In this document: positions 26,704 through 40,549 of the stretch, piece after piece
How the letters are laid out: the number at the start of each line of letters is the position of its first letter
Numbering within the stretch: the first letter of the stretch is position 1
Source: Chryseobacterium joostei
GTDB lineage: Bacteria; Bacteroidota; Bacteroidia; Flavobacteriales; Weeksellaceae
Direction: 5' to 3'
Assembly (NCBI RefSeq): GCF_003815775.1
Contig: NZ_CP033926.1
Location: 4,402,001-4,466,000, forward strand
Length of the DNA stretch: 64,000 nt
Position numbers and translations under genes: made by a program
Notes under the pieces: generated by a model
Databases searched by the model: none
What the model was told of the DNA's origin: nothing
What the model saw: the letters and a program-made list of their open reading frames with translations, nothing else

Positions 26704-26777
26704 GATCCGGTAGTTCAGCTGGTTAGAATGCCGCCCTGTCACGGCGGAGGTCGCGGGTTCGAGTCCCGTCCGGATCG
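26704..26777 (+). tRNA. tRNA-Asp (GTC), copy 1
   Basis: 74 nt. The acceptor stem GATCCGG pairs with CCGGATC, the discriminator base is G, the anticodon loop is CTGTCAC (GTC) on a CCGCC/GGCGG stem, and the T arm is GCGGG-TTCGAGT-CCCGT. CCA is not encoded (GCA follows). Confidence 0.97.
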
Positions 26778-26809
26778 CAAAAGTTTTATCAATTTACTTT
26801 AAAAAAATT

Positions 26810-26883
26810 GATCCGGTAGTTCAGCTGGTTAGAATGCCGCCCTGTCACGGCGGAGGTCGCGGGTTCGAGTCCCGTCCGGATCG
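26810..26883 (+). tRNA. tRNA-Asp (GTC), copy 2
   Basis: Identical to copy 1. It is separated from it by 32 bp and shares its spacer sequence, so the unit repeats with a 106-bp period. Confidence 0.97.
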
Positions 26884-26915
26884 CAAAAGTTTTGTCAATT
26901 TACTTTAAAAAAATT

Positions 26916-26989
26916 GATCCGGTAGTTCAGCTGGTTAGAATGCCGCCCTGTCACGGCGGAGGTCGCGGGTTCGAGTCCCGTCCGGATCG
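26916..26989 (+). tRNA. tRNA-Asp (GTC), copy 3
   Basis: Identical tRNA sequence. The spacer before it differs from the first spacer by one base (TTTTG for TTTTA). Confidence 0.97.
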
Positions 26990-27021
26990 CAAAAGTTTTA
27001 TCAATTTACTTTAAAAAAATT

Positions 27022-27095
27022 GATCCGGTAGTTCAGCTGGTTAGAATGCCGCCCTGTCACGGCGGAGGTCGCGGGTTCGAGTCCCGTCCGGATCG
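27022..27095 (+). tRNA. tRNA-Asp (GTC), copy 4; probable integration target
   Basis: Identical tRNA sequence. Its 3' flank departs from the repeated spacer right after GCAA, and a tyrosine recombinase gene begins 246 bp downstream. Its 3' end is therefore the likely attachment site. No second copy of the tRNA 3' end is seen in the window. Confidence 0.95.
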
Positions 27096-27118
27096 CAACT
27101 ATTAAATCATAATAGTAC

Positions 27119-27341: not shown

Positions 27342-28580
27342 ATGAACAAGACATTTAATTTACTTTTTTATGTAAAAAAAACTAAGACTAATAAGGCAGG
27401 TGAAGTTACAATTTATTTACGTATTACCATTGATGGTAAGAGAACTGAGATTAGCACAAAGCGTACAATAAAATCTTCAAAGTGGAATTCTGATTCTCAG
27501 AAAGTCGCTGGTTCCTCTGAAGAAAGCAAAACACTTAATTTTTTTCTGAAGACATTCGAACAGAAAATTTACAATACCTATCACAGTTTGATGAAAGATG
27601 ATGAGGGGGTAACATGTGAAACTCTTAAAAATCGGTTATTGGGAAAAGACGAATTCAAAAGAACCCTAATTCCTATTTTTAATGACCATAATGACCGAAT
27701 GGAGAAACTTGTAGGAAAAGAGTTTGCTCTTGGTACATTGGGAAGATATAGAACTTGTCTCAGCCATATCAAGGAATTTCTAAATTGGAAATTGGAAGTA
27801 TCTGATATAGATGTAACAAAAATTAATTATACTTTTCTGAACGATTTTGAATTCTTTTTAAGAACTGAAAAATCTTGTAATAACAATTCGGCGGTAAAAT
27901 ATATAAAGAACTTTGGTAAGATTATTCGTAGTTGCCTTGCTAATGGTTGGATGGAAAAAGATCCATTCCTTAATTATCACTCAAATTTTGATGAAGTAAA
28001 AAGAGTTTTTTTAAATGAACAAGAATTAGAGAAGTTGTTCAATAAAGATTTTAAAAATGAACGTTTATCTCAAGTTAGATATATCTTTCTTTTTAGTTGT
28101 TACACAGGTTTAGCATACATAGATACACAAAAGCTAACAAAAAATCACATCAATATTGGTTTAGATGGTAATAAATGGATTTATACAGTTCGACAGAAAA
28201 CTAAAACAACTTCTAATATCCCAGTACTTCCTCAAGCAGAGGATATTATTAGGCGGTATATAAACCATCCTATCTGTATTAACACTGGAAAGTTGCTACC
28301 TGTACTAAGTAATCAGAAAATGAATGCTTATCTTAAAGAGATTGCAGATTTGTGTGGTATCAATAAAGAACTTACTTATCATATTGCACGTCATACTTTT
28401 GCTACAACGGTAACCTTATCCAATGGGGTTCCTATAGAGAGTGTAAGTAAAATGTTAGGGCATAAAAATATCAAGACGACCCAGCACTATGCAAAAATTC
28501 TTGATAAAAAAGTGAGTGAAGATATGGTTGCATTGAAAAGCGTTCTGGAAGAAAAGGAACTGCAAAGAAAACTGGCGTAG
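27342..28580 (+). CDS. tyrosine recombinase (integrase) of Bacteroidota mobile-element type
   Basis: A 412-residue integrase. The N-terminal arm-type DNA-binding domain (YLRITIDGKRTEISTKR, residues 25-41) and a SAM-like core-binding domain (about 108-205) precede the catalytic domain. The visible active site is HIAR (His347, Arg350), GH (His374) and Tyr383 in TTQHYAKI, with candidate catalytic lysines at 286-288. The usual first arginine (TGLR) is replaced: TGLAYID has Ala258, a substitution also seen in the IntDOT group, where a non-Arg residue occupies this place. It presumably inserted an element beside the tRNA-Asp genes. No excisionase or relaxase gene is visible. Confidence 0.92.
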   Translation: MNKTFNLLFYVKKTKTNKAGEVTIYLRITIDGKRTEISTKRTIKSSKWNSDSQKVAGSSEESKTLNFFLKTFEQKIYNTYHSLMKDDEGVTCETLKNRLLGKDEFKRTLIPIFNDHNDRMEKLVGKEFALGTLGRYRTCLSHIKEFLNWKLEVSDIDVTKINYTFLNDFEFFLRTEKSCNNNSAVKYIKNFGKIIRSCLANGWMEKDPFLNYHSNFDEVKRVFLNEQELEKLFNKDFKNERLSQVRYIFLFSCYTGLAYIDTQKLTKNHINIGLDGNKWIYTVRQKTKTTSNIPVLPQAEDIIRRYINHPICINTGKLLPVLSNQKMNAYLKEIADLCGINKELTYHIARHTFATTVTLSNGVPIESVSKMLGHKNIKTTQHYAKILDKKVSEDMVALKSVLEEKELQRKLA

Positions 28581-28843: not shown

Positions 28844-29581
28844 ATGAATAAGCATGCCATTTTAATTGGTGTTAATGAAGTGCCACATTTGGATTATCTC
28901 TCAACACCTTCTTCCTATGCGATAGCGATGAATGACTGGGCTATTAGCCAAGGATTTAAAACATTTCTTTTTGTTGACGAACCTGACGATCGAATTGTTG
29001 CAGGTAATTGTTCTCGCACAGATATACTTAGGAGCATTCGTGGAATCATCGAGGAGACAGATCAACTTCTTATTTATTTTGCAGGGCATGGTGTTGAAAG
29101 CACCGCTACTAATGATATATGGTTATTGCCTGGATATAAGGACGATCCGAGTGATTGTATAAGTATTTCTTTGAACAAGGCTCTAGCTTACTCTTCTGGT
29201 GTACCCCACGTAATTTTTATTTCGGACGCTTGCCGTTCTCCTTCTAATACAGACTATCTTAGGGCTGCTACAGGCTCGGCCATTTTACCCAAACTTGAGC
29301 GATTAAATCCCACAACAGAAGTTGATGTTCTCTTTTCAACTTGGCCAGGAAAAATTTCTGTAGATGTTAGAGATGAAAAAGGAATTTATAGAAGCACATA
29401 TAGTGATTGTCTGCTTGAATGTCTTCATGGTCAAATAAAGGAGGTCATATTAGAGGTTAGAAAAGTAAAGCCTGGATTTCCGGCGGTTATGACAGATGAG
29501 CTAAATAGTTATCTTAAAAAGACTGTGCCATTGGAAATGGAAAAAAAGGTAGAACTGCACAGTTTCCGATGGGAGAAGTAA
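28844..29581 (+). CDS. caspase-like (peptidase C14) protein, N-terminal part of a probable longer product
   Basis: A 245-residue caspase-fold protease. It opens with AILIGVNEVPHLDYL, a typical first strand of bacterial caspase-like proteins. The catalytic dyad is His82 in YFAGHG and Cys130 in ISDACRS. There is no signal peptide. The ORF ends abruptly 10 codons past an A AAA AAG heptamer (29542-29548). Reading on in the -1 frame from that point joins it without a stop to the next ORF, giving a 457-residue protein. Caspase-like proteins beside integrases often act as abortive-infection effectors; that role is inference here. Confidence 0.82.
   Translation: MNKHAILIGVNEVPHLDYLSTPSSYAIAMNDWAISQGFKTFLFVDEPDDRIVAGNCSRTDILRSIRGIIEETDQLLIYFAGHGVESTATNDIWLLPGYKDDPSDCISISLNKALAYSSGVPHVIFISDACRSPSNTDYLRAATGSAILPKLERLNPTTEVDVLFSTWPGKISVDVRDEKGIYRSTYSDCLLECLHGQIKEVILEVRKVKPGFPAVMTDELNSYLKKTVPLEMEKKVELHSFRWEK
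29542..29548 (+). other. A AAA AAG slippery heptamer at the caspase ORF overlap
   Basis: Within the caspase frame (codons GAA AAA AAG, residues 233-235) the seven bases A AAA AAG match the most efficient bacterial -1 frameshift heptamer in exactly the right phase. After a -1 slip translation continues GGT AGA ACT GCA CAG TTT CCG into the following ORF. A GC hairpin (CGCGC/GCGCG) lies at 29594-29609, farther downstream than usual stimulators. A one-base homopolymer deletion explains the same picture. Confidence 0.6.
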
Positions 29582-30216
29582 ATTCAAGGGATCCGCGCTT
29601 CTTAGCGCGTTTTGATGAATCTTGTCTAGTTTCGGAAGGAGATATAGAAACTCCGGTTAGGAGTGTAGAAGATACACATCTTAAAGAAGAGAAAACTGTG
29701 TCAGAAAAATTAAATGCATTCCTCAATTTAAATAAATCGGAAGAAATAGATTCTATAGATATAAATTTTGACAAATCTCTTGAAAAAACCGAAAGATGGA
29801 TTAATCATTTATATTTTTCTCAAGATATGCTCTATGATAAATCTAGTTCTTCAATGGTCACTATATCGGGGCTTAAGAATGCTGTAGTTTTTAATAATTC
29901 GGACTTAGACTATACTTTTTATCGAGATTTTCCATCAACTCAGCAACAATCAATAGCATTAAATAATGGAAAGGATCGAAATGCAAAGTTGATATTGATA
30001 GGTGAGAATGAAGAGCGGTGCTATGCTATAAATGTTCTTTATGGATTCCATACTTCAATCATTTTTGATAGAGGCGAACTCATCTCTGTTGATTATTATC
30101 CTATGAATAGGGAGTTTAGCCCTTATAGAAGAGAGTTGTTTAAAGAAATTACAGAACGAAAAGCAGTTATTATTTCAGCTGCGAAAAATGGAATTTTTTT
30201 GGGAATGAAGAATTAG
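29569..30216 (+). CDS. C-terminal partner/extension of the caspase-like protein
   Basis: A 215-residue ORF overlapping the caspase ORF by 13 bp in the -1 frame. Its first ATG (MGEVNSRDPRFLARF) continues an open frame that extends back to the slippery heptamer (GRTAQFP before the Met), which suggests it is the C-terminal half of one protein. A low-complexity acidic stretch (SEKLNAFLNLNKSEEIDSID) is followed by a probable alpha/beta domain (residues 85-210) with VTISGLKNAVVFNN and ERKAVIISAAKNGIFLG. No family is recognised. It may be a sensor, substrate or regulatory domain for the protease. Confidence 0.6.
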   Translation: MGEVNSRDPRFLARFDESCLVSEGDIETPVRSVEDTHLKEEKTVSEKLNAFLNLNKSEEIDSIDINFDKSLEKTERWINHLYFSQDMLYDKSSSSMVTISGLKNAVVFNNSDLDYTFYRDFPSTQQQSIALNNGKDRNAKLILIGENEERCYAINVLYGFHTSIIFDRGELISVDYYPMNREFSPYRRELFKEITERKAVIISAAKNGIFLGMKN

Positions 30217-30238
30217 CAAAATATCTCCGAAGATTACA

Positions 30239-30491
30239 TCTTCAGCAGGTTCTAATTGGCAAGTTTGTTTTATAAAAACCTTTTTGTCGATGATATGATT
30301 CGTCAGAACAAAATTAAATAAGATTTAGCTATAAATAAATTCATATTAAGTTTCTTGTAGTTGTAGCTTTTTTACAATATAATTTTAAATATTTGAAGCA
30401 ATCGAAGTTATCATAGTTTGACTTTATTTTACTTAGGTTGCCTTACAATCAAGTTTACTTCTCTATGAACAATAAAATTGATTTTAAAAAC
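30239..30491. repeat. 253-bp direct repeat R, left copy
   Basis: Nearly identical to 55256-55508, with two mismatches (CTTTTTTAC versus CGTTTTTGC) and no gap, at a constant offset of 25,017 bp. It is non-coding and AT-rich, and begins 22 bp after the caspase-partner stop. A short part of its end (CAATAAAATTGATTTTAAAA) is repeated again at about 30553-30574. Confidence 0.93.
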
Positions 30492-30580
30492 TATATATTT
30501 TAATGTACCAGATTTATTTTACACTAAAAAAAATAATTTTATTTCTCTATAGACAATAAAATTGATTTTAAAATAAGTAG

Positions 30581-30769
30581 TATTTTTTATCACCTGAAAA
30601 AATTCCTCAAAAACCGAAATTTTGTGAGCCTGAAGATTTTGTTTTAAAGGGAAAACATAATGCTGAATTGGCTGACCAAATAGAAAATATCTTCGTTATC
30701 ATACCAATTGAAACAGCAAAAAGAGCAATCGATAAGGATAAAAAAATAGCAGGAGAATATTGGGACTAA
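30581..30769 (+). pseudogene. 5'-truncated ORF remnant after repeat R
   Basis: An open frame without any start codon, reading PQKPKFCEPEDFVLKGKHN then ELADQIENIFVIIPIETAKR and ending AGEYWD before a stop at 30767-30769. It begins at a stop codon just past the repeat and looks like the C-terminal end of a lost gene. The remaining 596 bp between the caspase partner and the sensor kinase hold only this and repeat R. Confidence 0.5.
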
Positions 30770-30812
30770 AAAAGCTAGTGAAAATTATTTAAATTTACAT
30801 TAAACCTCATTT

Positions 30813-33785
30813 GTGAAATTTCTTTGTATTTTCTTTCTGTTTCTAATTACTCTGTTTTTTTCTCAGGGAAATCCTGTTTATTTCAGTAAGAAAAAAATAA
30901 CTCAGGAAGATGGTCTTTCTCAAGGTTCCAATTATTTCCGTTTCGAAGACCGGAAAGGTTTTATGTGGATTACCTGCAATGATGCACTTAATAGGTATGA
31001 TGGCTCTTCTGTAAAGGTTTATAATTTGAATCGTTTCTTCAAAAATTGTCCGGCTTTACAGCAGGGTTATGGTTTTGCAGAAGACGAGAAAAACTTGTAC
31101 ATAGGCAGTACTCGTGGCTTGTATGTTTATGATTATGAAACAGATATATTCAGTTTTATAGATGTTTACAAAAATATTTCTACCTCTAAAACAGCTATGC
31201 CCATTGGCTTTTCAGAAGGAAAAATCTGGATTTTTAACGAAACTTATCAATTGGTAAGTTTCGATGTAAGATCAAAAAAAATAAAATTGGAAGTACAGGT
31301 TCCAATTGAACCGATAAAATCTATTCACGTTTATGATAATGAGGGGAATTTATTTTATTTCCGTATGCCCTTTATCGATAAACATAATAATATCTGCTTT
31401 ATCGGGAAAAATGAAGTTGCGGTCTATAACCTTATCACCAAGAAATCATCAAAAGTTATACAGCCTAAAGATACAGACGAAATGCTATGCAGTGCTTATG
31501 ATAAAAAGAATGACCAGCTTTTCATCGGAACTCAAAATAAGGGAATTTTAGTTTTAGAAAAACAATACCAACATTTTTTTTATATTTTAAATAATAAAAA
31601 ATCCATTGGAAGTATTGCTATAAATGAGGACAATATTTTTTTTAATTCGGATCTTATTTTCAATGTGTTTGATAGAAAAATAAAACGAAATACTTCACTT
31701 GAAAGTAATCCATTAGGATATGTGTTTGGGTTTGATAAAGTTGGCAGGCTATGGAGCTGCGATGATGGGGTAGGGCAAATTATTATGAATTTCAAAGGAA
31801 ATATGTTGCAAAACTATAATGATATTCAGAATGGGCATCCTGCATTCAAATCCGGTGTCGGCAATTTTACTGAACTTTCCGATGGAAAAGTTTTGATACA
31901 ATCCGAAATCCTTTTTGATTACAAAACATTTATGTCCAAAACTTTGGAAAATTCAAGTTCCAGAAGCTATCAAAATCCATATTCAAAAGACATTTGGATG
32001 ATTTCCAACCATCCGGCAACCACTTTTGAGTTTGAAAGATTATCTCAAAATTTCACAAAAAAAATTCAAATTAATATTGAAAAATCTAAATTTGGTGTAT
32101 TTCAAAATATGACATTTTTTAAAAACAGTTTTCCACTCCTGGCATTTTCCACCGGATTGTTCTGGCTGAATACAGAAGATAAAAAACTTGAAAAAATAAC
32201 TTCACTTCCGAAAAAAAATTCTTTTTTCATTTCTAAAATTAGCGGTGACAGAATTGCTGTTAGCTATCTTAACGGCGATATGGTTCTGGCAAAACTTCAT
32301 TCGGATAATTCGTTGGAAAATCTCGGCAAAATTCTACCAGGAATGCAAAGTTTCTATCTTCAGGAATATGAAAAGAAACAACAATTTTGGGCTGGAACCA
32401 ATGAAGGTGTTTTTCTTCTGGATAAAAATTTTAAAATCTTAAAAAAATTCGATAGCAATAACGGACTCGCCGGAACGTATATTTACGGAATTCTGATGGA
32501 TGATTTCGGGAAAATCTGGTGCAGCCATCAAAGAGGGTTAAGCAGTATAGATACCGAAAATTATTCCATCATAAATTTTGATAAAAATGACGGAATCCAG
32601 CATTGGGATTTCAACAACCGAGCGTTTTTGAAAACCTCGGATGGTACTTTGTTTTTCGGTGGAGTAAATGGTTTTAATTTTTTTAAACCTCCGCTTCAGT
32701 TCAAAAGTTTCTATAAGCCTGAAATTTATTTTGATGAAATCCGGATTAATAATGCCATTTTCAGCTATCAAAAAGGATTAAATTCATTAAAAATTTTAGA
32801 TTTGAAAAATGATGAAAATAATGTAACTATAAAAGCTTTTATCAAAGATTTGGAGTTTGGAGAAATTCGGGAATTAATGTACCGGATAAAAAGTACGGAC
32901 CATTCTTGGAAAAAAATTCCAAAAAAAACACCTCTTATTTTAACAGGACTTGCTCCTGGAAAATATGAAGTCGAATTTGCTTACACAGACAAATTCAGCA
33001 AAAAAATAATATCTCAGAAATCTTTGCAGCTCAATATTCAAAAAGCTTTTTATCAATCGTATTGGTTCTGGGGGATTTTGGGCGGTTTGTTTTTCGGGGG
33101 AATTATTTATGCAGTAGGAAGATGGAAATTATTTAAGCAGAAGAATGAGTTCAGTGAAAAAATGGCTTTAGAAAAACAGCGAGAAAAGATAACGGCAGAC
33201 TTGCACGATGATATCGGCTCCACCCTGAGTAGCTTGCAGATAAACTCTGTAATTGCCAATCAATTAATTGATAAACAAAAACTTCCCGAAGCCAAAAATG
33301 TTTTAATAAAAATAGAAAACCAATCTCAGAAACTATCAGAAAATATCGGAGATTTTGTCTGGAGCATGAAACCAAATGAAACAGCACTCATGACTTTAAG
33401 CACAAGAATACGGAATTTTGCCAATGAAATTTTAGGAAATACCAATATCAATTATCACATAAAAATTGATGAGAATATAGATCAAGAAATTACTGATTTT
33501 GCAATGAGGAAAAATATCATTCTCATTGTAAAAGAAGCGTTGAATAATGCTGCAAAATACAGTAATGCTAAAGATTTACAGCTTAATTTTGTGCAAAATA
33601 ATTCCAATTTTCTATTGAAAATTTCAGATGACGGAATAGGTTTTGAGCTGCCTGTAAAAATAGGTAACGGATTACAAAACATGAAAAAAAGAGCAGAAGA
33701 GATGAATGGTATTTTTGAAATTACTTCTACAAAAGGAACACACATAAAAATCAGTATTCCTAAAATTAGGGATCAATATCCTTAA
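30813..33785 (+). CDS. hybrid-architecture sensor histidine kinase, NarL-type HisKA_3
   Basis: A 990-residue membrane kinase with GTG start and signal peptide (residues 1-18). The periplasmic part is a two-propeller sensor of the Reg_prop type (repeats such as FEDRKGFMWITCNDALNRYDG, IGSTRGLYVYD and ILMDDFGKIWCSHQRGLSSID), ending in a Y_Y_Y domain near residue 650-740. One membrane helix (YWFWGILGGLFFGGIIYAVG) follows. The cytoplasmic core is HisKA_3 with His798 in ADLHDDIGS, then HATPase_c with N-box KEALNNAAKYS and G-box DDGIGF. The cognate LuxR/NarL regulator lies 47 bp downstream. The input is probably a glycan or other surface cue, by family analogy. Confidence 0.92.
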   Translation: MKFLCIFFLFLITLFFSQGNPVYFSKKKITQEDGLSQGSNYFRFEDRKGFMWITCNDALNRYDGSSVKVYNLNRFFKNCPALQQGYGFAEDEKNLYIGSTRGLYVYDYETDIFSFIDVYKNISTSKTAMPIGFSEGKIWIFNETYQLVSFDVRSKKIKLEVQVPIEPIKSIHVYDNEGNLFYFRMPFIDKHNNICFIGKNEVAVYNLITKKSSKVIQPKDTDEMLCSAYDKKNDQLFIGTQNKGILVLEKQYQHFFYILNNKKSIGSIAINEDNIFFNSDLIFNVFDRKIKRNTSLESNPLGYVFGFDKVGRLWSCDDGVGQIIMNFKGNMLQNYNDIQNGHPAFKSGVGNFTELSDGKVLIQSEILFDYKTFMSKTLENSSSRSYQNPYSKDIWMISNHPATTFEFERLSQNFTKKIQINIEKSKFGVFQNMTFFKNSFPLLAFSTGLFWLNTEDKKLEKITSLPKKNSFFISKISGDRIAVSYLNGDMVLAKLHSDNSLENLGKILPGMQSFYLQEYEKKQQFWAGTNEGVFLLDKNFKILKKFDSNNGLAGTYIYGILMDDFGKIWCSHQRGLSSIDTENYSIINFDKNDGIQHWDFNNRAFLKTSDGTLFFGGVNGFNFFKPPLQFKSFYKPEIYFDEIRINNAIFSYQKGLNSLKILDLKNDENNVTIKAFIKDLEFGEIRELMYRIKSTDHSWKKIPKKTPLILTGLAPGKYEVEFAYTDKFSKKIISQKSLQLNIQKAFYQSYWFWGILGGLFFGGIIYAVGRWKLFKQKNEFSEKMALEKQREKITADLHDDIGSTLSSLQINSVIANQLIDKQKLPEAKNVLIKIENQSQKLSENIGDFVWSMKPNETALMTLSTRIRNFANEILGNTNINYHIKIDENIDQEITDFAMRKNIILIVKEALNNAAKYSNAKDLQLNFVQNNSNFLLKISDDGIGFELPVKIGNGLQNMKKRAEEMNGIFEITSTKGTHIKISIPKIRDQYP

Positions 33786-39080: not shown

Positions 39081-39250
39081 TAAAGTTGAACAGAAAAAAG
39101 ATTCCTAAAACTCTTTCTATTTAGGATAGATATTACACACTCTCTTGACATGAATACCGATTTTCTAATTAGCAAACAGAATTAGAAAATCATCAATTTC
39201 ATTGCGTATAACAATTTTCTTAATCTACAAAGTCTAAAGTTTATTAAAAA

Positions 39251-39278
39251 CTAAACCGCAACAAAAGTTGCGGTTTAG
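39251..39278 (+). terminator. strong hairpin terminator
   Basis: CTAAACCGCAAC / GTTGCGGTTTAG 12-bp perfect stem with AAAA loop, about 170 bp past the previous stop. Confidence 0.75.
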
Positions 39279-39314
39279 TTCTTGTTTAAGTACTAAGTAT
39301 TGCTGAAAAGCTAT

Positions 39315-39569
39315 CTATTTCTCAAAATTAGGCTCGTTTTTGATAAATTTAAAATGCTCATCACTCATTAATATGATCCAGTTTGGGATTTTTAAATCTC
39401 CCACAAATCCTCCGTAATTATGATTGGCATATTCATCCATAATAACGGTTCTTCCTTGTTGCATTTTCAAAGTACGTGTCGTCGATTGATATTTCTCGAT
39501 TAGAGGTCTTTTTGAATCTGCTATATGATTCTCAATACAGCTTTGGGAAAGAAATATTTTAGATATCAC
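39315..39569 (-). CDS. small hypothetical protein, possibly a fragment
   Basis: An 84-residue ORF on the minus strand between two plus-strand operons. It contains a plausible conserved-looking C-terminus (TVIMDEYANHNYGGFVGDLK then WIILMSDEHFKFI). There is no signal peptide and no recognised family. A further open minus-strand fragment lies at 39694-39804 but in a separate frame context, so both may be remnants of one or more decayed genes. Confidence that it is expressed is low. Confidence 0.35.
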   Translation of the reverse strand: MISKIFLSQSCIENHIADSKRPLIEKYQSTTRTLKMQQGRTVIMDEYANHNYGGFVGDLKIPNWIILMSDEHFKFIKNEPNFEK

Positions 39570-39693
39570 TATATTTTTTACCGGATATTTTAATCAAGGA
39601 ATATATTATAAATGTAAAATATTTTGTTTTTCAATAATTTATGTTTGTGGAATAATCAGGCTTCTGCCATCGCTTCTTCTAAAACTTTCGAGT

Positions 39694-39804
39694 TTACTCT
39701 TTCTTCTCAGTCTTCGCCTTTTCAGCCGCTATTTTTGTCATCAACATATCAGGTAAAGTTCCTTTTTCAAATTGAATATATTCAATACGATAAAAATACC
39801 AACT
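39694..39804 (-). pseudogene. short ORF remnant without start
   Basis: An open minus-strand stretch of 36 codons reading WYFYRIEYIQFEKGTLPDML and then a lysine/glutamate-rich end (KAKTEKKE) before a stop. No start codon near its beginning and a stop directly upstream. The otherwise empty 39570-39910 interval holds only this and the cold-shock leader. Confidence 0.25.
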
Positions 39805-39836
39805 TCATTTTTTGTTTACAGATCGATTAATTGCTT

Positions 39837-39874
39837 TGATACTATTAGTATCAATAAGGCAATGGCACGTGCCA
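39837..39874 (+). promoter_or_regulatory. structured leader of the cold-shock gene
   Basis: Two small palindromes, TGATACT ATT AGTATCA (39837-39853) and TGGCACGTGCCA (39863-39874), lie within 75 bp of the cold-shock gene start. Structured leaders are common for csp mRNAs, so a regulatory role is plausible but unproved. Confidence 0.35.
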
Positions 39875-39910
39875 AAATAGTTTTAATACATAATTTTATA
39901 ATATAATACA

Positions 39911-40102
39911 ATGCAACAAGGAACAGTAAAATTCTTTAATGACGCCAAAGGTTTTGGTTTTATTACACCATCAAATGGAGGTCAGGATATTTTCGTACAT
40001 ACATCAGGTTTAATTAATGATATACGCGAAAATGACACTGTAACATTCGATTTAGAGAACGGTAAAAAAGGCATTAACGCAGTTAATGTACGAGTAGCAT
40101 AA
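39911..40102 (+). CDS. cold-shock domain protein
   Basis: A 63-residue single cold-shock domain, a small RNA/ssDNA-binding protein acting as an RNA chaperone. RNP1 is KGFGFI (residues 13-18) and RNP2 is DIFVHTS (25-31). Start MQQGTVKFFND is canonical and the length is full. A long AT-rich structured leader precedes it and a strong terminator follows. It sits oddly alone within the accessory block. Confidence 0.93.
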   Translation: MQQGTVKFFNDAKGFGFITPSNGGQDIFVHTSGLINDIRENDTVTFDLENGKKGINAVNVRVA

Positions 40103-40140
40103 ATTCAGTAGAAAGCTTAAGCTTTCTTGATGTTAAAATC

Positions 40141-40170
40141 AGCAGATAACATAAGTGTTATCTGCTTTTT
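40141..40170 (+). terminator. terminator of the cold-shock gene
   Basis: AGCAGATAACA TAAG TGTTATCTGCT perfect 11-bp stem followed by nine Ts. A separate palindrome AGAAAGCTTAAGCTTTCT is at 40111-40128. Confidence 0.88.
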
Positions 40171-40225
40171 TTTTGGTGTACCAATAGGAAAATATGAGGA
40201 TTACAGTTAACTCTGGAAAGAAGGA

Positions 40226-40381
40226 ATGTACCAACTAAGACAATATGCAAAGCCTCTTGTAATAAATATAAAGCCTGAGATTTTTAATAATTTTGATAAA
40301 GAAAATTACCTTAACATTGAAACATATTCCGGATTATTTGGTATAGAATGTATCTATTACCACTGGAAACATAAAGCCTGA
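40226..40381 (+). CDS. 51-residue hypothetical ORF, possibly a gene fragment
   Basis: Reads MYQLRQYAKPLVINIKPEIF and continues with a plausible soluble sequence ending CIYYHWKHKA. There is no recognised family. It lies in the 447-bp gap between the cold-shock gene and the second kinase, which otherwise holds only the terminator and upstream sequence of the kinase. It could be the tail of a lost gene. Confidence 0.3.
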   Translation: MYQLRQYAKPLVINIKPEIFNNFDKENYLNIETYSGLFGIECIYYHWKHKA

Positions 40382-40549
40382 TAAATAATATTTAAGTTAT
40401 ACTTTGATATTTTAAAATTAAACTTTCCACTTCATCAATCAGCTTTCACACTTTATAAACCCTGACAATCTCCGTCGGAAGAAAATGAGTACTTTTGAAA
40501 AACAGTATCATCCGGAAAATTTACGGATAATCCTATGGTTTCCTGATAA

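Follow-up and report, generated by a model that had tools for sequence, protein, structure and literature searches.

A caspase-like gene split at an A AAA AAG heptamer in Chryseobacterium joostei is probably a recently broken copy of a single-ORF peptidase

Does a caspase-like open reading frame (ORF) that ends shortly after an in-phase A AAA AAG heptamer use -1 programmed frameshifting to produce two proteins, or is it the front part of a longer gene that has been broken at a run of adenines? The question is raised by a locus in the window, by which we mean the whole stretch of 64,000 nucleotides of Chryseobacterium joostei DNA that was analyzed (contig NZ_CP033926.1, positions 4,402,001 to 4,466,000). 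A sequence-only reading of this DNA had left the choice between deliberately made isoforms and a lesion. We conclude, with a probability of about 0.85, that the locus represents a caspase-like peptidase gene of about 575 codons, a single ORF in its relatives, that was broken recently, and not a programmed frameshift.

Anatomy of the split gene

The arrangement that raises the question is exact to the base. The zero-frame codons of the heptamer are AAA AAG; ten sense codons and the ORF1 stop follow. The -1 frame coincides with the ORF2 frame, which remains open to position 30216 (Table 1). The length of 457 residues proposed for the -1 product follows from these coordinates. The caspase-like identity of ORF1 is likewise borne out, given that it matches Pfam PF00656 (Peptidase C14) with an E value of 7.7e-11 and a score of 42.5 bits against a gathering cut-off of 21.4. 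His82 and Cys130, which we take to be the catalytic pair of Peptidase C14 in ORF1, occupy nearly invariant columns in an alignment with 31 relatives.

Table 1. Features of the caspase-like locus and its left flank, in window coordinates
Feature	Position	Strand	Details
Four tandem tRNA-Asp genes	26704-27096	+	period 106; left island edge
Tyrosine integrase	27342-28580	+	412 aa; Pfam PF00589, PF13102, PF17293
ORF1, caspase-like peptidase module	28844-29581	+	245 aa; residues 1-235 homologous to relatives, last 10 out of frame
A AAA AAG in phase, first frame break	29542-29548	+	within A7 run 29541-29547
ORF2, middle part of same protein	29569-30216	+	215 aa; P0026 residues 234-451 align in ORF2 frame
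T7 run, second frame break	30194-30200	+	also in-phase T TTT TTG at 30195-30201
Last recognizable family stretch, third frame	30195-30266	+	P0026 residues 449-472; 58% identity over 24 aa
Family's last ~102 residues and partner alpha/beta hydrolase not recognizable	30267-30812	+	

ORF2 yields no match at E≤1 in Pfam, PADLOC or NCBIfam. The earlier statement that the C-terminal domain matches nothing thus holds for these three collections, but not for proteins at large, because ORF2 corresponds to a regular part of a family of proteins of about 575 residues. A search for known RNA elements between 28500 and 30900 gave no Rfam match at E≤1. Among solved structures, no sequence match was found for ORF1 (E≤1), for the family alignment (E≤0.1) or for P0026, the closest relative of the window copy (E≤10).

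Alignment of P0026 (574 aa; 86% identity to ORF1 and 65% to ORF2) with the window by tblastn reveals how the two ORFs are related. Specifically, residues 1-235, 234-451 and 449-472 match collinearly in three different frames, and the homology in the ORF2 frame begins upstream of the ORF2 ATG. The frame changes meet at the A7 and T7 runs, and both breaks coincide with a slippery-looking heptamer. In the same search, nothing recognizable of the last 102 residues of P0026 was found beyond 30266. The conserved C-terminal motifs of the family, LGLFAAYAYFQ, GWSYL and PGLWTSF, belong to this missing part. The window copy therefore lies in three frames, with two breaks and a lost 3′ end, where the family has a single uninterrupted ORF of about 570-590 codons. 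The second break and the loss of the 3′ end are features that the sequence-only reading had not described. Since the C-terminal motifs lie past the second break, a -1 shift at the first heptamer still yields a protein that lacks the C-terminal end of the family, and even an efficient slip would not make the full protein.

What remains of the gene is well preserved. Every strictly invariant position is retained in the window (33 of 33 and 10 of 10). With the threshold lowered to 90% conservation, mismatches occur at 3 of 71 and 4 of 21 positions, a level comparable to that of P0026 (1 of 71 and 6 of 22). Either any decay is recent, therefore, or selection still acts on ORF1 alone. Strict conservation of this kind is also expected of a functional gene, and to that extent it counts against our preferred explanation.

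Two direct repeats of 39 nt, 90% identical and 84 nt apart (30451-30489 and 30535-30573), follow the lost 3′ end in DNA that lacks long ORFs. Farther on, an open stretch of 62 codons with no good start (30581-30766) resembles the tail of another lost gene; its peptide has no Pfam match at E≤0.5.

Uninterrupted relatives and a partner hydrolase

An uninterrupted ORF of 575 codons in a genome of the same genus (L003/L013) spans both pieces found in the window. With this natural protein as the query, 64 proteins were recovered from candidates of about 316-1006 residues, of which the 8000 sharing most words were scored. We aligned 31 of these 64 (P0001-P0031, 569-588 aa) with the two window pieces, and all 31 cross the junction uninterrupted. 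Named members include P0001 (C. flavum), P0009 (C. viscerum) and P0022 (a Sphingobacterium metagenome-assembled genome); the family is annotated as ‘caspase family protein’ and occurs in Chryseobacterium and other Bacteroidota. Pfam recognizes only the caspase domain in P0026 and in L003, aside from one weak, chance-level match in L003. A PADLOC match of P0026 to PglX is weak (E 0.0033) and was taken as chance.

Four relatives were read as DNA. None has a stop, none carries A AAA AAG at the junction, and none has an A run of seven or more at the junction itself, although in one of them (G157) an A8 run lies some ten codons ahead of it. It had been set out beforehand that homologues encoded as single ORFs without the heptamer would indicate a lesion, and the outcome favors a lesion over programming. 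With 31 uninterrupted relatives and four of four DNA-read copies free of the junction heptamer, the lesion half of the original alternative gains support and the deliberate isoforms lose it.

Short or split forms were sought by separate protein searches with ORF1 and ORF2. The ORF1 search returned five proteins, namely the window's own cluster (P0065), three of 381, 333 and 228 residues, and P0066 (193 aa), whereas the ORF2 search returned the window's own cluster (P0069) as its sole match. Among the short proteins found in this way, a split at the junction is known for the window's own clusters alone. Clusters P0065 and P0069 each have two member sequences on two contigs, and another assembly may thus carry the same split. 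P0066 aligns to ORF1 as far as residue 187 and then ends, and is perhaps another copy that was broken elsewhere.

In whole-genome searches, counting the genome of origin in each case, ORF1 was found in 7 of 147 genomes and ORF2 in 2 of 147, P0001 in 7 of 173 genomes of the genus, and P0026 in 8 of 320 genomes of the taxonomic family and in 2 of 395 of the phylum, the second being G541 (E 8.8e-16). A contig scan with the C. flavum protein, limited in reach to close relatives, matched C. flavum itself alone, and viral contigs gave no pattern match to P0026. Among the papers listed by our literature searches, none was recognized as being about this gene.

Intact copies of the caspase gene have a constant neighbor. 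At 8 of 8 loci examined in seven genomes, an alpha/beta-hydrolase gene lies directly 3′ of the caspase gene, as judged by coordinates in all eight and by reading the overlapping ORFs in four; this count leaves out seven places with weaker caspase matches (G011, three in G092, G115, G116 and G541). The intact unit is represented by L013 (1501-4133), by L014-L016 and by longer relatives in G015, G204, G705 and G157. It encodes a caspase-like protein of 575-581 or about 614-618 residues followed by a hydrolase of about 294-301 residues. The Pfam matches of the hydrolase are weak, of alpha/beta-hydrolase type and below cut-off (best LCAT, E 0.0014), and the L013 hydrolase has no PADLOC or NCBIfam match at E≤0.1. 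No hydrolase gene lies directly 3′ of the window copy. Indeed, the hydrolase query had no match anywhere in the window's own genome, with matches in seven other genomes serving as the positive control.

Assembly error, a surviving peptidase or a programmed frameshift

Could the damage reside in the assembly, such that the real gene is less damaged? Both breaks fall within 7-base runs, and the authors of GeneTack, in the portion of their article available to us, expect singleton breaks with BLASTp validation to stem from sequencing error and not from genuine indels (PMC3711429). We consider this explanation unlikely. In a survey of frame integrity, 81 ORFs of relatives (at least 120 aa, on either strand and including antisense ORFs, with more than 45% identity) align to the window in a single frame for more than 90% of their length. 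These fall in 31 bins of 300 nt, which represent mostly genes to the left of the island described below, where one gene may fill more than one bin and partial single-frame hits are uncounted. The only two candidate breaks elsewhere are ORFs antisense to two neighboring window ORFs, across their gap. Moreover, A/T runs of eight (22 cases) and nine (7 cases) are present in the window, and both ORF clusters have a second member. Neither the lost 3′ end nor the missing hydrolase depends on run lengths. We therefore reject wholesale assembly error as the main cause, though not for each individual base.

ORF1 might instead persist by itself as a shortened, stand-alone caspase. It retains the catalytic residues as well as each of the 33 strictly invariant caspase positions, and yet a recent break would lead us to expect this anyway; of the five short proteins found, the window's own cluster is the only one known to stop at that point. 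The likelihood of such a protein is, in our estimate, low.

Programmed -1 frameshifting, which would generate a short protease and a 457-residue protease with a C-terminal domain, is the explanation suggested by the heptamer itself. The motif is in phase, the -1 frame is open, and in E. coli few motifs shift as readily as A AAA AAG, according to the sections of two studies on which we rely (PMC4066793, PMC5009743). Some leakage at this site is possible. How unusual, then, is the motif in this DNA? Our background set comprised 55 window ORFs (53,214 nt), which remained of the 67 in the window once the two focal ORFs, nine antisense ORFs and one truncated at the window edge had been set aside. 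In-phase A AAA AAG occurs eight times in 7 of these 55 ORFs, and in-phase homopolymeric slippery heptamers occur 43 times across the set. The heptamer alone is not above chance expectation. Such a motif is also readily left behind when a base is lost: removing one base leaves an in-phase heptamer in 11 of the 18 A/T runs of at least eight in these ORFs, and a 7-base run followed by G contains one in two of three phases.

Other evidence against programming comes from the relatives and from the surroundings of the site. None of the 31 aligned relatives is split at the junction, and besides the window's own clusters no protein known to be split there was found; the GeneTack authors require a conserved site before calling a frameshift programmed, as far as the text consulted indicates (PMC3711429). 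The ORF of the intact G157 copy is unbroken, with A AAA AAG in phase at codon 63 and, within its A8 run, A AAA AAA at codon 227. The 30 nt upstream of the heptamer contain none of the five Shine-Dalgarno (SD)-like patterns listed in PMC4066793. Downstream, a small hairpin is predicted 3 nt from the heptamer, but the 80-nt segment has a fold z of -0.79, and 47 of 200 shuffles are equally stable, so that no significant structure is found in a test that excludes pseudoknots. Finally, the -1 product itself would stop at the second frame break, short of the conserved C-terminal motifs. Given the uninterrupted relatives, the lack of detected stimulators, and the second break and truncation behind the site, we reject programmed frameshifting, which we regard as very improbable. 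Least probable of all is that the homopolymers serve as phase-variable on/off switches: A7 and T7 runs do lie in coding sequence, but the window holds many runs of this length (76 of seven bases), the gene would still be without its 3′ end and its partner, and the four DNA-read relatives lack a comparable A run at the junction.

A broken copy of the caspase gene, the reading that we prefer, would have originated as the upstream member of a gene pair with an alpha/beta hydrolase, as in the intact relatives examined. Its frame would then have been broken at the A7 and T7 runs and its C-terminal end lost, along with the hydrolase gene that was not found. The in-phase slippery heptamer would be a frequent leftover of a frame break in an A run. 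We infer that the locus is a nonfunctional remnant of recent loss, and that intact copies form a defense or cell-death effector pair, a function suggested by analogy from the relatives and the literature. The intactness of ORF1, including its catalytic residues, counts against this explanation, and ORF1 could still be made and active. There is also a very slim chance that the A run, perhaps together with the T run, allows a few ribosomes or RNA polymerases to read on, so that the truncated caspase would be accompanied by small amounts of a longer product. If true, the locus would be a tuned-down, hydrolase-free version of the effector.

This outcome disposes of an attractive false positive. 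When a homopolymer in an A/T-rich genome suffers a one-base break, the result often mimics an in-phase slippery site with an open -1 frame, and break and programming are told apart by relatives, by stimulators and by the state of the rest of the gene. The intact caspase and alpha/beta-hydrolase unit of Chryseobacterium, in turn, emerges as a candidate defense module.

Island setting and comparison with known systems

As the sequence-only reading had noted, the caspase gene sits directly behind a tRNA-Asp integrase. This is a tyrosine integrase, and four tandem tRNA-Asp genes lie ahead of it. Past the end of the window, at window coordinates 69382-69456, there is a fifth, identical tRNA-Asp, which is followed at its 3′ side by a short terminator-like sequence that is also present behind the tRNA-Asp array in genomes G005 and G006. 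An island of about 42 kb (27097-69381) therefore lies between the fourth and fifth tRNA-Asp genes. The caspase gene is the first cargo behind its integrase. G005 and G006 look like empty sites. In G031, a related integrase lies behind the same tRNA-Asp array with different cargo, in a block of 3.26 kb with 82% DNA identity that also takes in thioredoxin and tRNAs; G034 has a partial related integrase behind this array, and G019 and G022 carry an extra tRNA-Asp copy about 17 kb downstream. Other island cargo includes a 990-aa sensor kinase with propeller repeats (30813-33785), which at E≤1e-100 was found only in its own genome among 59 genomes. About 1.5 kb within the island (39081-40549) lack any ORF of at least 100 aa.

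The in-phase A AAA AAG is common to the window and to the programmed -1 frameshift of dnaX, as described in the available parts of two reports (PMC3711429, PMC5009743). Of the features of a dnaX-type site, the window has the in-phase heptamer and the open -1 frame; unlike dnaX as portrayed there, it has no SD-like stimulator 6-17 nt upstream, no significant downstream stem-loop and no conservation of the site.

The likeness to an EACC1-associated caspase (NCBIfam NF047832) is weak and extends over the caspase domain (E 1.3e-7); at 31.3 bits against a cut-off of 140, the window protein falls outside that family. In the ~575-aa caspase family (P0001, P0009, P0022 and P0026), by contrast, both the caspase module and the middle domain are homologous to and collinear with the window copy, which differs in being broken twice, in lacking the last ~102 residues and in having no hydrolase gene behind it.

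In VMAP conflict systems, caspase domains always have an alpha/beta-hydrolase gene as a neighbor, according to the passages of Kaur et al. that we consulted (Kaur et al., 2020; PMC7159879), and the pairing observed in the intact relatives is thus of a known kind. Among the NTP-dependent conflict systems covered in that material, the caspase and alpha/beta-hydrolase pairing occurs in VMAP systems and, as effectors, in GAP1-N1 systems. The intact relatives resemble the VMAP and GAP1 systems in having the caspase-hydrolase pair, whereas the window copy is without the hydrolase.
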